In this document: piece by piece, positions 8,806 through 41,789 of the stretch
How the letters are laid out: every line of letters begins with the position of its first letter
How positions within the stretch are numbered: the first letter of the stretch is position 1
Source of the DNA: Cavenderia fasciculata
Taxonomy: Eukaryota > Evosea > Eumycetozoa > Acytosteliales > Cavenderiaceae
NCBI RefSeq assembly: GCF_000203815.1
Contig: NW_004457723.1
Span: forward strand, 434,001 to 498,000
Length of the DNA stretch: 64,000 bases
Direction of reading: 5' to 3'
Notes under the pieces: model-generated
Seen by the model: only the letters and a program-made list of their open reading frames with translations
Told to the model about the DNA's origin: nothing
Database searches by the model: none
Program-made: the position numbers and the translations under genes

Positions 8806-11800
8806 ATGACAAGTAAAATCGAACAACTAAGAACAGAAGGAAACAAGGTAAAGAAGATCTTCTTTAATATTCTCTCTCTTTATAGTTTTTTGTTTTAACA
8901 CATAACTACTTTCTTTTACTTTACTACTACTTAGAGATATAGTTTAAAAAAATTTAATGAAGCAATTGAAATATATAAAGAAGCAATTGAATTGGTAAAG
9001 GATGATGCAACCTTTCCATCAAACATGTCTGCATGTTGTTTTGAATTGGGTCAATATGATAGATCAATGGAACTGTCAAAACAAGTGATAGAAATGATTA
9101 GACTAGGAGGAGGAGATGATCCAAAACAATTGAGGAAAAAGAATCTTGCTCGTATTGCAAGAATCGTTCATTTACAAGGTTCAAAAGAAGATTTACCGAT
9201 TGACGAGTCAATTTACAGAGGAAGATTTAAAAGATAAATCATTTGATTTTGAAAAGATTAAAAATCAACTAGTAGAAAATAATAATATTAAAGAGGAAGA
9301 TTGGAAAAATAGAAAAGACCAAGTCATTGATGTTTTGAAATTACCAACTATATTGCCATCACGAGTATCAAATGTATTTGAATATTATGTTGTTGGACAT
9401 GATTTTGCAAAGAGTGCAATCTATCCAAACAAGGATGGAGAAGAAGAGGAACCGGTAGATGAAACATTGATGATTGGTAGAATCAAAGAAATTGAAGAGG
9501 ATCGTATCTTTTTGGACAAGCATCCTCAACTATCTTACTTTTATGGTGGTGTTGGAGATTGTCGTCATCCCATTTTTACATTGGCCGATTTAAATAGACA
9601 ACTTGGTGGTAATGGTATACCTCCTCCTAATTGCAAGATACATTTTACATTGAATGATATTGTATCATCGGCACTTGCTAGAGCAACTATTGTCTATTTA
9701 TTATTGGAAGAGGTTGGAAGATTTGATACGATTGAACAATTGTATAGTAACCCAACTGCTGCCAATGCAGCTGCTCTACTTTATTATGTGTATATTGGTA
9801 CTGCCATCCCAACACCATTACACAGTATGTTGGTACAAAGATTAAAACAACTCGTTAAACTTGGTGATAGTGGTCAATTGCCAGAATGGTTATCGATTGA
9901 CAAGAAAATATCATGGCCAAAGATTAGAGATGCTTTGGTTTATTGGTGTCAAGAAATGCCAGCTTCACTAGCCAACATTATTCCAATATCTAATCGTGAC
10001 GCCTCAATGGATGATATTGATACTGGTAATGAAACTGTAACCAATTTACCACATGGTTTGACATCTCTATCATTACCAAAGAAAAATCTGCAACTAGAAG
10101 AACAAGTTAAAAAGGCATTGATGGATCCAGCCATGTTGGAACAGTTTGGTATCACCAATGAACAACAGAAAAATGAAATGTTGGATATGTTGATGAATAG
10201 TGGTCTTATTGGTGATGCATCTGCTGCTGCTGAAAGTCAAAGAACACTTTTACAACTAGTTCACGAGACTCAATGGTTTTTCGTCCTTGGGAATTTACCA
10301 TTTCCACGCGTTGCAGCCGATTATGGTAATGAATTGTCACTTGAAATGGCTATAAAGTGTCAAGATATTTTACACACAATTGCTAAAAGGACTAAAGAGG
10401 ACAGTGAACTTGTTCAAAAGTTTAATGTCACTATTCGAGACGAGGAAAATCCACATTTCAAGATTAATCCAACCTTTTTCGATGTTGAATTTGGTAAAAC
10501 GGGTGCAGAAACTTCTAGTTTGGAATTTAAAGCATTGGATGTTGTAGCAAGTTTTTATCGTTATCAATGGATTGGTTTACCATCAACGACAACAACAACA
10601 AACAAAAATACCCTTTCATCATTTGATTATTTTATTCATGTATTTTATCAAGCTGCTCGTGGTTTTAATCTTTTGGCTTGCAACAATTCTTTGATGATTG
10701 AAATGTGTGGAGGAGATTATCAATCAGTTCTAGACAATGTACGTGACAATAAGGAAAAGAGAAAAGAATCTGGTATGGCTGTTGAATATGATGGTATCTA
10801 TCTTAGTAATGTACCAGATTATACTGGTTATTTGGGTATATTTTCAGATGCCATTGAAATGTTAAAACCACTGGTTCAACATTCATATATTGGATTCAAT
10901 ATTCTTTTAAATACTGGACTGTGGAAATCATTGGATGATGTATTTTATACCTATCTTGGTATACCTAGCCTCGAAGATTTACCTCGTTATATTGGTGCGA
11001 GATCAGTTGGTAGTAATAGTGTTTGGGATGTAGTATGCGTTTCTCTGGAATGAATCTACCAATTCCTTTGGAGCAGCTTCTAACTCGTGATGAATTCATT
11101 GCTTGGTTGTCAAGATTATTTATTTTCATTGTCACTCCATCGGCAATTGATTCTAATCAACTATGTGTCATCAATTATCCAAATACATTGGCAACCTATT
11201 TCAAGTTTTTAGGTAGATTACTAAGAGTTGGGTATCCTGCACATTGGATTTCTGGTATGATTGAACTATTACTTGGTGGATCATTGTTTGCTCCAGAACC
11301 ACCAAAAAACAAACGTGTCATCCCATCTGAAAAAAATCCAACCACCAAAAAAATGTCCATCACTCCTTGGTTGATTGAAATTCGTACACAAGCTGCATTA
11401 TGGTTGGATAAATATCAAATTAGATTGTTGGATTATAAATTACCAAGTGTGGTCAGTGTCAAAAAATACAATTTTACTGTGGCACCTTATGATCTCCTCA
11501 ACCTACCAAAATTGCATTGCGAATCTGGCTCGGTATTTACAAATGTACTCATGGTGGCCATAGAGTTTCCTCCCTATCAAGTTCACATTCCTAGAGCCAT
11601 GGACAAGATAAATGATAACTTTAGACTCTCACTATTACATCCAGGCTATAACAAGATTGTCATTGTCACCTCGATTTTGTTTAATAGTACAACCAATGTT
11701 TTGTCTTTTTGGATGGCTGAATCGGATTATAATCATCTCAAAGCTCAAAATGCTACATTGTCAATATTTAGAAGTGATAATTGGAAAACTTTGACTCCAA

Positions 11801-11814
11801 TTAATAAACTTTAA
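8806..11814 (+). CDS. TPR / DUF4470-like protein (frame changes needed)
   Basis: Exon 1 is 8806-8847 and exon 2 starts at 8935 after a clear intron. The N-terminus holds TPR-like helices (RYSLKKFNEAIEIYKEAIEL, CCFELGQYDRSMELSKQVIEM). A long central part contains a segment resembling DUF4470 (FYGGVGDCRHPIFTL...CKIHFTLNDIVSSALARATIVYLLLEE), which is common in dictyostelid and fungal multidomain proteins of unknown function. Two frame changes are needed: one near 9,150-9,220, which a 67-base GTATTG...TTTACAG intron (9152-9218) could explain, and one near 11,025-11,050 with no convincing intron. Either the assembly has indels or the gene is decaying. The reading beyond both points (to 11,814) still looks fully coding. 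Function unknown. Confidence 0.65.
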
Positions 11815-11875
11815 AGTTAATATTAAATAATTAAAAATAATTAAATAAAAAGAAAATAAAATAATTATTTTTAAA

Positions 11876-11887
11876 TTTTTGGGCTGG
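11876..11887. repeat. left target-site duplication of element copy 1
   Basis: The 12 bases TTTTTGGGCTGG are repeated exactly at 12,821-12,832. The two copies bracket the poly-T-headed element between them, as expected for a retrotransposed insertion. Confidence 0.75.
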
Positions 11888-12820
11888 CGTTTTTTTTTTT
11901 TTTAAGCATCTCATTTCGTGGCATCTACCTGTAGGGTGGAGCACTACTCTTTCGATTGCGAAGTTTTATTGATTGAAGTCTTTGTTTGACCAGCAATGGG
12001 AACTGAGTTTCCAAAGAAGAAACAAGTCCAATCTGTTTTTTGGGGTGCCAAATGTCTGTTCTATTTCCATCCAAGCAAAAATGGCAAGTCTTGGTGGGAG
12101 CTATTAGTTCTATCTGTTCATCAATACGACGGGAAGCTTCTTTACCTGTTGAATCGAGGGGGGGCTGAACGGTTCTGTGAGTTACGATCCATAGTTCTTT
12201 TGTCAGATTAGTGACCAGATCGTGACTGTTGGGGGGAGTGCCCAGTGTCACCATCCATATGTATGTGTGTGTCGGGTAATGGTTGGTGGTTGTGTCTACA
12301 CCATGATTATCTATCTTGTATCGTTCTGTTGTTCGTATTGTTATGTTGTTGATTGATGTTTTGATGGGATGTTGATGATGTTCATTTCCAATTGTAATAG
12401 TAATGTGAATACTGTTTTCAAACTGTATTGACTTGTTGTATAGATAATTAAATTCCACCTAAATTATTATTCCTATTGTTTCGATACTGTTTTACTGTTG
12501 TATTGTGTTGATTAGAGAAGGAGATGGAGGAAGGAGCGAGATATTTTTTTTTTTTTATTTTTTGTTTTTTTTTTCTTGTTGGTGATCTTTGATATAGGCA
12601 CTGCTTGTGCTCGCTCGCGCCCCTTATTTATAATAATGATAATGATATAAATAATTGAACAAGGGGGCACACTCGGGCAATTAGTTGTGGCTTTTAGTGA
12701 GTGTGAAAAGAAATAGTAATGTTGATAAAAGATAGTTGATGATTGAGTGAAGTTCTATAGTACTCTATACGTAATTCTCTGTTTCTATCTTTCTCTCTAT
12801 TACAGAAAAATTCCAAACTC
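11888..12820 (-). mobile_element. poly(A)-tailed non-LTR-type retroelement, copy 1
   Basis: The element of about 930 bases starts on the plus strand with a long T run, which is a poly(A) tail on the minus strand, and ends at AAACTC. It is bracketed by 12-base target duplications. A near-identical copy lies at 39,026-39,961 with different target duplications. The sense (minus) strand of this copy has one open reading frame of about 177 codons (within 11,925-12,458), containing a CHFC...H cluster and a basic end; I do not recognise it. Copy 1 looks whole for what it is, but I see no reverse transcriptase, so it is either a SINE-like/non-autonomous unit or a 5'-truncated LINE. It lies about 47 bases upstream of tRNA-Val, the position favoured by dictyostelid TRE5 elements. 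Confidence 0.75.
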
Positions 12821-12832
12821 TTTTTGGGCTGG
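12821..12832. repeat. right target-site duplication of element copy 1
   Basis: Exact repeat of 11,876-11,887 at the opposite end of the element. Confidence 0.75.
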
Positions 12833-12879
12833 GGGCAGGGGTATTTTTGCGCTGCGCGGGTAATTGAGAACATCTTAAA

Positions 12880-12953
12880 GTCAGGATGGTGTAGTTGGTT
12901 ATCACAAAACCTTAACACGGTTTGGGTCATGGGTTCGATTCCCATTCTTGATA
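12880..12953 (+). tRNA. tRNA-Val(AAC)
   Basis: 74 bases, cloverleaf by eye: acceptor GTCAGGA pairs with TCTTGAT (two G-T pairs), D stem GTG/CAC, anticodon stem AAACC/GGTTT around loop TTAACAC (anticodon AAC at 12,914-12,916), T stem ATGGG/CCCAT with loop TTCGATT, discriminator A. There is no intron. A T-rich terminator follows from 12,958. An identical gene lies at 40,021-40,094. Confidence 0.95.
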
Positions 12954-14212: not shown

Positions 14213-14248
14213 ATCGGAGCCAGCCGCAGCAAAAAAATACAAAAGATA

Positions 14249-14332
14249 TCCGGTTTGCCAGGATTGAACTAGCGACCAGCTGATGACTTTTTAATACTAC
14301 AGTCAGCTGCTCTACCACTGAGCTAAAACCGG
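14249..14332 (-). tRNA. tRNA-Tyr(GTA) with a 12-base intron
   Basis: 84 bases on the minus strand: acceptor CCGGTTT pairs with AAACCGG, then TAGCTCAGTGGTAGAGC D arm, anticodon stem GCTGA/TCAGC, anticodon GTA (14,298-14,300), T arm GCTAG-TTCAATC-CTGGC, discriminator A. The anticodon loop is 19 bases long, implying an intron of about 12 bases just 3' of the anticodon, as is usual for eukaryotic tRNA-Tyr. A T7 run follows at 14,237-14,231. Confidence 0.93.
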
Positions 14333-14348
14333 AATGGATGCCCCCTGC

Positions 14349-37629: not shown

Positions 37630-38066
37630 TATATAAAAATAGACAAAATGTGGCTTTATCTTGGTAAAGATAGATTTCTGACAACAGGGTCATCAAATAT
37701 CACCAAGGACGATGCTAAAAGCGTGGGTAACAAATGATCTCTGATTTTTGCTTTATTTCTCTTTGCTTGAGCATATTGTGAGACTCCAACACTAACTGGC
37801 TAGGCGACCTATGCCGTTTCTTGTCATGCTGGTTCAGTCTGTCTTCTAGTGGTTGACGATAACCGATGGACACAAATATTTCTATAATTCACAAACTAAA
37901 AGACAGAGTATCTTTACTGAATATCATCATTACAAAAGCAAGAGTCTAGTTGTGTATATCTAAACTGTGTTTTCAAAAACAAAAACAATTAAAACTTTGT
38001 AACTTCTGTGTGTTAGTAATATAATAATTTACTAAATAATAATAACACAGCAATTATATCAACACA
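37629..38066. other. gene-free stretch
   Basis: AT-rich with a few moderately complex patches, but no convincing frame or RNA gene. Confidence 0.35.
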
Positions 38067-38380
38067 ATATTATAGCCTATTGTGCTAGCGAGACAAAAAA
38101 AATAACTTAAAATAAGAAAATAGCGATATCTTTAACCAATTTATTTTTAGAACAAGCAACAATCCAACATGCTTATTACTATATACAAAATGATACATGA
38201 TCAAAGTCCATTTAACATATAGACATCGACAACCTCGAGATAATCTTTATTTCTTGCTATAATGAATAAAACTGAAACCCTCATTTAATTCAATATTCCA
38301 GCGACAATATCGATGGTTAATTTTAGAGATGTGTTATTGATAGGTAATATTGAATAAAGATATAGCTCCTCTATTACTTA

Positions 38381-38395
38381 AAATTATGCGTGCCG
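38381..38395. repeat. target-site duplication variant 1
   Basis: AAATTATGCGTGCCG, the leftmost of four related 15-16 base words (others at 38,544, 39,011 and 39,962). Confidence 0.6.
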
Positions 38396-38543
38396 CTTTT
38401 TTTTTAAAGTAATTCTTTTCCTGTTCTCTCCCATCGGGATGAGTAGTACTCAGAAGTTACAAAGTTTAATTAATTATACTTTTTAATTGACCAACAAGAA
38501 ATAAAGATAATCTCGAGAAGAATTATAGGTAATTTGTTTGTGT
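38396..38543 (-). mobile_element. 5'-truncated poly(A)-tailed element fragment A
   Basis: Poly-T on the plus strand, then AAAGTAATTC..., about 148 bases, the 3' end of a non-LTR-type element on the minus strand. It is homologous to the first part of fragments B and C. Target-like words lie on both sides. It has no coding capacity. Confidence 0.65.
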
Positions 38544-38559
38544 AAAATTAGGCGGGCGG
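38544..38559. repeat. target-site duplication variant 2
   Basis: AAAATTAGGCGGGCGG, between fragments A and B. Confidence 0.6.
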
Positions 38560-39010
38560 TTTTTTTTTTTAAAGTAATTCTTTCCCTGTTCTCTCCTATC
38601 GGGAAGAGTACTCAGAAGTTACAAAGTTTTATTAATTATACTTTTTAATTGACCAGCAAGAAATAAAGATTATCTCAAGAAGAATTAAAGTTAATTTGTT
38701 CTGGGGGTTTGTCCATGTCTATGATACATGTTTTATGGACGTTGATCATGTATCTTATTGTATAGTATCAAGCATGTTGGATTGTTTTAGATTGTTGCTT
38801 GTTCTAAAAATAAATTGGTTAAAGATATCGCTAATTTTTTTTTTTTTTTCTCACTAGCACAAAAGGCTATAATATCTTGTAGTATAATTATTATTGTTAT
38901 TATTATATAGTAAATTATTATATTATTAATATTATTATTGATAGATGAAGAGAGAGTAGAGGGAGATGAAGGTGTTGAGGAGGATAAGAAGAATGAGGTT
39001 GAGGTGATCG
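38560..39010 (-). mobile_element. 5'-truncated poly(A)-tailed element fragment B
   Basis: Poly-T then the same 3' end as fragment A, extending further (about 450 bases). The first 160 bases match fragment C at 41,519-41,689 almost exactly. It is bracketed by target-like words and has no clear reading frame. Confidence 0.65.
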
Positions 39011-39025
39011 AAATTAGGCGTGCGG
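39011..39025. repeat. left target-site duplication of element copy 2
   Basis: AAATTAGGCGTGCGG, matching 39,962-39,976 at 14 of 15 positions. Confidence 0.8.
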
Positions 39026-39961
39026 TTTTTTTTTTTTAAGCATCTCATTTCGTGGCATCCACCTGTAGGGTGGAGCACTACTCTTTCGATTGCGAAGTTT
39101 TATTGATTGAAGTCTTTGTTTGACCAGCAATGGGAACTGAGTTTCCAAAGAAGAAACAAGTCCAATCTGTTTTTTGGGGTGCCAAATGTCTGTTCTATTT
39201 CCATCCAAGCAAAAATGGCAAGTCTTGGTGGGAGCTATTAGTTCTATTTGTTCATCAATACGACGGGAAGCTTGTTTACCTGTTGAATCGAGGGGGGCTG
39301 AACGGTTCTGTGAGTTGCGATCCATAGTTCTTTTGTCAGATTAGTGACCAGATCGTGACTGTTGGAGGGAGTGCCCAGTGTCACCATCCATATGTATGTG
39401 TGTGTCGAGTAATGGTTGGTGGTTGTGTCTACACCATGATTATCTATCTTATATCGTTCTGTTGTTCGTATTGTTATGTTGTTGATTGATGTTTTGATGA
39501 GATGTTGATGATGTTCATTTCCAATTGTAATAGTAATGTGAATACTGTTTTCAAACTGTATTGACTTGTTGTAATGATAATTAAATTCCACCTAAATTAT
39601 TATTCCTATTGTTCGATACTGTTCTACTATTGTATTGTGTTGATTAGAGAAGGAGATGGAGGAAGGAGCGAGATATTTTTTTTTTATTATTTTTTTTATT
39701 TTTTGTTTTTTTTCTTGTTGGTGATCTTTGATATAGGCAGTGCTTGTGCTCGCTCACGCCCCTTATTTATAATAATGATAATGATATAAATAATTGAACA
39801 AGGGGGCACACTAGGGCAATTAGTTGTGGCTTTTAGTGAGTGTGAAAAGAAATAGTAATGTTGATAAAAGATAGTTGATGATTGAGTGAAGTTCTATAGT
39901 ACTCTATACGTAATTCTCTGTTTCTATCTCTTTCTCTCTATTACAGAAAAATTCCAAACTC
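39026..39961 (-). mobile_element. poly(A)-tailed non-LTR-type retroelement, copy 2
   Basis: Near-identical to copy 1 (11,888-12,820), with the same poly-T head and the same AAACTC end, but in a different target. The long reading frame seen in copy 1 looks broken here. Few differences separate the copies, so both insertions are recent. It ends 59 bases before tRNA-Val, exactly as copy 1 does. Confidence 0.78.
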
Positions 39962-40020: not shown

Positions 40021-40094
40021 GTCAGGATGGTGTAGTTGGTTATCACAAAACCTTAACACGGTTTGGGTCATGGGTTCGATTCCCATTCTTGATA
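40021..40094 (+). tRNA. tRNA-Val(AAC)
   Basis: Identical to the gene at 12,880-12,953; anticodon AAC at 40,055-40,057, no intron. T5 and T10 terminator runs follow. Confidence 0.95.
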
Positions 40095-41518: not shown

Positions 41519-41689
41519 TTTTTTTTTTAAAGTAATTCTTTTCCTGTTCTCTCCTATCGGGAAGAGTAGTACTCAGAAGTTACAAAGTTTTATTAATTTT
41601 ACTTTTTAATTGACCAGCAAGAAATAAAGATTATCTCAAGAAGAATTAAAGTTAATTTGTTCTGGGGGTTTGTCCATGTCTATGATACA
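41519..41689 (-). mobile_element. poly(A)-tailed element fragment C, runs into assembly gap
   Basis: Almost identical to the start of fragment B (poly-T, AAAGTAATTC, CAGAAGTTACAAAG, GACCAGCAAGAAATAAAG) up to GTCTATGATACA, where the N block begins. The repeat probably caused the gap. Confidence 0.8.
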
Positions 41690-41789
41690 NNNNNNNNNNN
41701 NNNNNNNNNNNNNNNNNNNNNNNNNNNNNNNNNNNNNNNNNNNNNNNNNNNNNNNNNNNNNNNNNNNNNNNNNNNNNNNNNNNNNNNNN
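41690..41789. other. assembly gap (100 N)
   Basis: Exactly 100 N, the conventional length for a gap of unknown size. Confidence 0.99.

Follow-up and report, generated by a model that had tools for sequence, protein, structure and literature searches.

The window analysed here, a 64,000-nucleotide stretch of a Cavenderia fasciculata contig, carries copies of a short retroelement, termed S, next to tRNA-Val genes. S copy 1 occupies positions 11888–12820 of the minus strand (933 bp), with its 5′ end at 12820 and its poly(A), read as poly-T on the forward strand, at 11890–11903. The left end of the element consists of CG followed by 14 T and is read as a minus-strand 3′ poly(A), so that the 5′ end of S faces the targeted tRNA-Val (AAC) gene at 12880–12953 on the plus strand. 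The element is bracketed by the target-site duplication TTTTTGGGCTGG, found at 11876–11887 on its 3′ side and repeated exactly at 12821–12832 on its 5′ side, and the tRNA gene begins 47 bases beyond the right duplication. The first-pass annotation, which had described a unit of about 930 bp with a poly-T head, an intact 12-bp duplication and a tRNA-Val some 47 bp away, was thus accurate on all of these points. The 3′ tail region of S, about 154 nt at 11904–12057 of the minus strand, is homologous to the 3′ ends of two other elements, X and Y, described below; its edges are S coordinates 764–917 of the local alignment, converted to window positions. Elsewhere in the window, a tRNA with the odd anticodon call gtag at 14248–14333 of the minus strand is probably an intron-containing tRNA.

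S copy 2 lies at 39026–39961 of the minus strand, is 97% identical, shows a 12-bp flank match (TAGGCGTGCGGT) and adjoins its targeted tRNA-Val (AAC) gene at 40021–40094 on the plus strand. An X/Y-family copy at 38560–39011 of the minus strand lies beyond S copy 2 as seen from the tRNA. Since S copy 2 sits between this X/Y copy and the tRNA, it was probably inserted later. The X/Y copy itself belongs to a stack of X/Y-type pieces that extends over 38013–39011, in which 38013–38240 is inverted relative to the others. A further 171-nt X tail in the 41519–41789 region, 100% identical to the X copy at locus L033, directly abuts a 100-N assembly gap (41690–41789), so that its tRNA, if any, is hidden.

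A BLAST search of S against its own genome (30,995,898 bases, or 31.0 Mb, in 21 contigs) returned 56 pieces, including 11 further full-length or nearly full-length copies at 92–97% identity. Together with the query, these 12 copies are 96.4–99.5% identical in pairwise comparison, with a mean of 98.3% (66 pairs, gaps ignored), and S is a family beyond chance. The insertion counts given below rest on the 30 of the 56 pieces that were fetched (loci designated L001 onwards), which merge into 27 insertions; the remaining 26 pieces were not taken as loci of their own, and a few of them lie inside fetched stretches. Flanking duplications of 11–17 bp accompany 16 of the 27 insertions, against a single case among 702 mismatched pairs of left and right flanks. 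The 11 insertions without a duplication of at least 11 bp are L006, L013–L016, L019, L020, L022, L026, L027 and L030, a 9-base A-run match at the flanks of L006 having been left out of the count. Duplications are therefore present around other copies, as the initial reading of copy 1 as a retroelement insertion had demanded. S copies that retain their 3′ end terminate in poly(A), and those that keep the 5′ end begin at, or a few bases from, GAGTTTGG. Six insertions are 5′-truncated, and a duplication is found at the truncation point in three of them (L018, L023 and L028) and not seen there in L013, L014 and L019. Thus, S displays the features of non-LTR retroposition, namely poly(A), duplications of variable length and 5′ truncation. 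Internal deletions occur in L017, L020 and L029. Six other insertions (L015, L016, L022, L026, L027 and L030) keep the 5′ end and lack the 3′ part, none of them with a duplication of at least 11 bp, and we take them to be later deletions. A longer parent extending past these 3′-deleted copies was considered and discarded, as comparison of 1500 bases of flank from each of the six detected no common sequence. Two rearranged copies deserve description in their own right. At L019:1501–2227 the 5′ part of S is inverted at 441/442 and the inverted segment is surrounded by a repeat of some 28 bp, an arrangement that resembles twin priming. At L034:8296–8345 only some 16 nt of S and the poly(A) remain, seemingly bracketed by CGTTTTGCC duplications, as in an extreme 5′ truncation. 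Single-sequence folds of S were also viewed for a conserved 3′ hairpin, and none is claimed.

The insertion sites of S are dominated by tRNA genes. In 16 of the 27 insertions, ARAGORN places a tRNA 39–67 bp past the point where the BLAST match to S ends, and in all 16 of these directly adjacent cases the 5′ end of S points toward the 5′ end of the tRNA. The adjacent genes specify Val, Lys, Asn, Asp, Arg, Glu, Phe and Pro. In nine further insertions (L007, L012, L014, L022, L023, L026, L028, L029 and L030) S is separated from a tRNA of the same orientation by another element (X, Y, W or V); the nested placement of L023, L029 and L030 comes from contig coordinates combined from separate searches. 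By a rough arithmetic that assumes all 1670 first-look tRNA candidates to be real, a tRNA would be expected within 70 bp downstream of about 0.4% of random sites, or for 0.1 of 27 insertions. S therefore integrates within the range of roughly 37–90 bp upstream of tRNA genes that characterizes TRE5-type elements. The suggestion in the first-pass annotation that the family has the same targeting as TRE5 is borne out by this survey of the assembly, in which the copies are not scattered regardless of tRNA genes but for the most part either adjoin one in the same orientation or are nested behind a TRE-family element. As for the other insertions, L008 has a 14-bp duplication and faces, 57 bp away, a sequence that resembles A and B boxes by eye (L008:2438–2515). 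It was accepted as a tRNA by neither ARAGORN nor Rfam and may be a tRNA in decay or a different target of the Pol III type. At L019 the nearest placeable tRNA of the same orientation is about 3.3 kb away, with a Y copy between.

The 3′ tail connects S to X, an element that encodes a reverse transcriptase (RT). The three RT-bearing copies of X (L033, L043 and L044) are all 5′-truncated and begin close to tRNA genes, and the L044 frame matches the Pfam family RVT_1 (E 2.8e-32) and, weakly and below the cut-off, zf-RVT (E 0.0018). X is classed as TRE5 because it carries an RT and lies beside tRNA genes, not from a phylogeny. The 3′ ends of S and X can be aligned along some 154 nt, as far as the poly(A), with a local score of 38, compared with maxima of 22 in 300 dinucleotide shuffles and 25 in a single-base shuffle. 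S may descend from TRE5 in this 3′ segment of about 154 nt, to which its homology to X is confined. The true helper of S may be an element other than X, because the two 3′ ends are only about 66–72% identical, the best BLAST stretch covering about 107 nt with 72% identity. Searches with PF00078, PF03372, PF14529 and a 101-amino-acid N-terminal piece of X recognised no full-length X with an endonuclease domain. PF14529 gave no endonuclease match in the genome, while PF03372 gave eight matches, known at profile level only and without a tie to X. One copy contains the complete N-terminal piece at 100%, a second has a 32-amino-acid part of it, and two others match it at 27–28%. The longer relative with the 3′ end of S that the first-pass annotation had called for is thus present as an RT-encoding element, although in 5′-truncated copies and not in a full-length autonomous form.

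The X tail is also carried by a second short family, Y. A genome search yielded 53 pieces that match the X tail; in 14 of them, which belong to Y, the match begins at the identical X position 207. Y combines a tRNA-like B-box head with the X 3′ tail, as exemplified by L031:1877–2763 and L059:632–1920, both on the minus strand, and its 5′ end reads GGGCATGGCGTGGCAAGTGAGTCGG...GGTTCGAATCC. Among the 20 Y heads fetched (L045–L064, from 32 head pieces), all contain a B box and all have a tRNA on the same strand past the 5′ end, at 56–70 bp in 18 cases, at 146 bp in one and at 12 bp in one; 15 of the 20 display a duplication of at least 9 bp in an exact search made without a mismatched control. The B-box pattern matches both subtypes, Y1 and Y2, and the strict A-box pattern matches neither, an A-box-like stretch being visible by eye; Rfam did not call the one Y head submitted to it (L046) a tRNA. 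Judged from coordinates, the X tail in Y1 begins immediately behind the stop codon of ORF2; Y2 also includes the final stretch of X ORF2. The Y2 sequence cut from L059, tail included, measures 1289 bp, and from the similar length of 1275 bp listed in Table 1 of PMC5006619 we take Y2 to be Df_TRE5-A.2. Y may be a LINE-tailed SINE or may represent the 5′ UTR of the helper itself following an internal deletion. S lies closer to the tRNA than an X/Y copy in S copy 2 and in L013, and farther from it than X, Y or W in L007, L012, L022, L026, L028, L029 and others. The insertion times of S and of X, Y and W interleave, as expected with one machinery. Two further observations concern other elements. 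A tail type, V, is located between S and X to the right of the S end in L030, where it reads AATAAATCTGGACTCTAGTCG in T-head orientation. Six RT matches of equal score with open frames of 1410–1424 amino acids, on contigs C2, C7, C15 (two), C16 and C20, are possibly the tRNA-downstream Df_Skipper-2 of Table 1 of PMC5006619.

How S acquired this tail can be read in two ways that imply the same mobilisation and a different origin. S could be a composite of a foreign 5′ sequence and a TRE5 tail, or an internal-deletion derivative, comparable to TRE5-A.2 or to a 'SIDE', of a full-length TRE5 element whose 5′ end has been lost from the assembly. The deletion origin is a serious contender, on which our judgement falls a little short of even. 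It draws strength from the D. discoideum precedent, as excerpts of PMC5391098 describe TRE5-A.2 as lacking ORF2, and from the structure of Y2, where a Y head is fused to the end portion of X ORF2 followed by the X 3′ UTR, which has the look of an internal deletion; moreover, no full-length X was found with which the 5′ end of S could be compared. Against it, the first 640 nt of S do not resemble the Y head (score 14, shuffle maximum 15), and S contains no ORF1 remnant recognisable by Pfam. In addition, the genome search with the whole of S gave S copies, some of them diverged, X tails and short A-rich matches, and no longer parent.

A different TRE family could also have moved S through its poly(A) alone, which is enough for some LINE/SINE pairs. 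One candidate is W, located at L034:460–1558 of the minus strand and in the right flanks of L023 and L029. W occurs in tRNA-linked piles, where it is nested with S, and its ORF resembles X ORF2 (29% over 83 amino acids). Its 3′ end (TCAAAGATTTTATT-poly(A)) differs from that of X. The last 600 nt of the W piece, without its final 15 nt or so, reach a score of 18 with S, less than the highest shuffle score of 22, whereas X scores 38 against 25. W was not supported as donor of the S tail, and mobilisation of S by such a family is improbable.

The coding capacity of S provides little to suggest a protein-encoding element. The first-pass annotation had noted, beside the absence of an RT, a single ORF of about 177 codons with a CHFC..H cluster. 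This frame exists in L001, but it opens with GTG, reaches that length in only one of the 12 full-length copies and has no match in Pfam. From the same GTG the frame extends for 115 codons in eight of the 12 copies and for 70–84 codons in three, and the CHFC cluster is absent from these 11 other frames. The longest ATG frames of L001–L012 measure 109, 75, 82, 47, 82, 34, 82, 47, 48, 47, 47 and 95 amino acids, with no long ATG frame common to the 12 full-length copies, and the longest frames allowing GTG, ATG or TTG starts span 70–177 codons. The indels between copies fall in C-runs, A-runs and a CA repeat. By ATG frames, GTG/ATG/TTG frames and Pfam, S contains no recognisable ORF1, and at 933 bp it lacks the ORF1 and the ORF2 with APE, RT and zinc finger of an autonomous TRE5. 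The 177-codon ORF is thus unlikely to be a gene. That S might be a decayed autonomous or otherwise protein-coding element, with the GTG-started frame as its ORF remnant, is suggested by the recurrence of the frame in most full copies, and yet copies that are 96.4–99.5% identical would have such frames in common by descent anyway, the frame lacks an ATG and three of the 12 are broken; we regard this origin as very improbable. As an identity of about 98% predicts sharing by descent, the 115-codon frame is not read as a gene, although a small product from it is conceivable. A Pol III promoter in S was likewise rejected, as the strict pattern finds no A or B box on either strand and Rfam gives no match for window positions 11800–12870 up to E=1. 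Finally, a spread of S by segmental or tRNA-gene duplication, which might be imagined from four tRNA-Val (AAC) targets (L001, L004, L009 and L013) with some similar flanks, is hardly credible given the eight kinds of adjacent tRNA, the poly(A) and 5′ truncations, and target duplications that vary by copy and contradict it for the bulk of them.

Very probably, S is a non-autonomous, apparently coding-empty non-LTR retroelement that is moved in trans by TRE5-type machinery, and its structural features support a TRE5-type enzyme that works in trans by target-primed reverse transcription. In the mechanism we propose, S RNA, polyadenylated and starting at a fixed 5′ position, would be picked up by the reverse transcriptase/endonuclease that a TRE5-A-like element encodes, the helper presumably being X or its lost full-length form. 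Recognition of the S RNA would occur through the common 3′ end of about 154 nt together with the poly(A), the common tail being the putative recognition signal. Target-primed reverse transcription would then proceed at a nick about 50 bp upstream of the tRNA gene, leaving the S 5′ end toward the tRNA. Targeting would derive from helper proteins in trans, which presumably touch TFIIIB, a Pol III factor, in the way suggested for D. discoideum. ORF1 as well as ORF2 would be supplied from elsewhere than S; for ORF1 this is suggested because S has the address and orientation of TRE5-A without a recognisable ORF1.

A broader proposition is that tRNA-targeted integration is open to any RNA with a TRE5-like tail of about 150 nt, target choice being wholly in trans and requiring no ORF1 in cis. 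S and Y have unrelated 5′ parts and a common position (about 50–60 bp) and orientation, with neither a recognisable ORF1 nor a complete ORF2, and on this evidence we hold the proposition to be evenly poised between true and false. If it is true, dictyostelids have a LINE/SINE-like partnership plus site-specific integration. Whether ORF1 must come from the moving RNA was left open by the laboratory element TRE5-A-bsr, which is modelled on TRE5-A.2 and carries ORF1, the presumed target finder (excerpts of PMC5391098). A natural passenger such as S, without a recognisable ORF1 at the same site, argues that targeting is entirely in trans. S also offers a minimal tail as candidate recognition signal, and a coding-empty passenger that aims at such a site would be a useful clue to arranging harmless targeted insertion.

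Among known systems, S invites comparison with tRNA-derived SINEs that carry LINE 3′ tails. Similarly to these, S is short and apparently non-coding, has a LINE-type 3′ end and poly(A), and is presumably moved in trans. In contrast, S displays no A or B box by pattern and no Rfam match, and has a defined insertion site. The description of S as SINE-like in the first-pass annotation therefore holds for its size, apparent lack of coding and LINE tail and not for a Pol III head, and in the strict sense, which asks for an internal Pol III promoter or a tRNA, 5S or 7SL head, S is not a SINE. Y resembles this class of tRNA-derived SINEs with LINE 3′ tails. S belongs to the same guild as the TRE5-like elements of Dictyostelium fasciculatum, which lie 31–98 bp upstream of tRNA genes according to Table 1 of PMC5006619. 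The consensus lengths given there for Df_TRE5-A.1, Df_TRE5-A.2, Df_TRE5-A.3 and Df_TRE5-B are 2587, 1275, 2941 and 1534 bp, none of which fits the 933 bp of S, a separation that is drawn from the listed lengths only. The titles and abstract openings among the literature matches listed describe no S-like element in dictyostelids. The view of S as an undescribed short passenger stands to that extent, although TRE5-A.2 is a described non-autonomous precedent (excerpts of PMC5391098). In D. discoideum, TRE5-A inserts with its 5′ end always toward the 5′ end of the tRNA, mostly 47±3 bp upstream (PMC5391098, in part). In vitro, its ORF1 protein binds TBP, a subunit of TFIIIB, and TRE5-A.2, a form without ORF2, is apparently mobilised in trans by TRE5-A.1 (excerpts of PMC5391098; see also PMC5633606). 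Thus, TRE5-A.2 resembles S in having no ORF2, in being moved in trans and in its target duplications of variable length (PMC5391098 and PMC5633606, in excerpts). In contrast, TRE5-A.2 as described there keeps ORF1, thought to find the target via TFIIIB, whereas S has no recognisable ORF1. TRE5-A.2 is a derivative of TRE5-A.1; S has only its tail in common with the RT-bearing X. By analogy, and within these excerpts, TRE5-A.2 is the closest described analogue of S.
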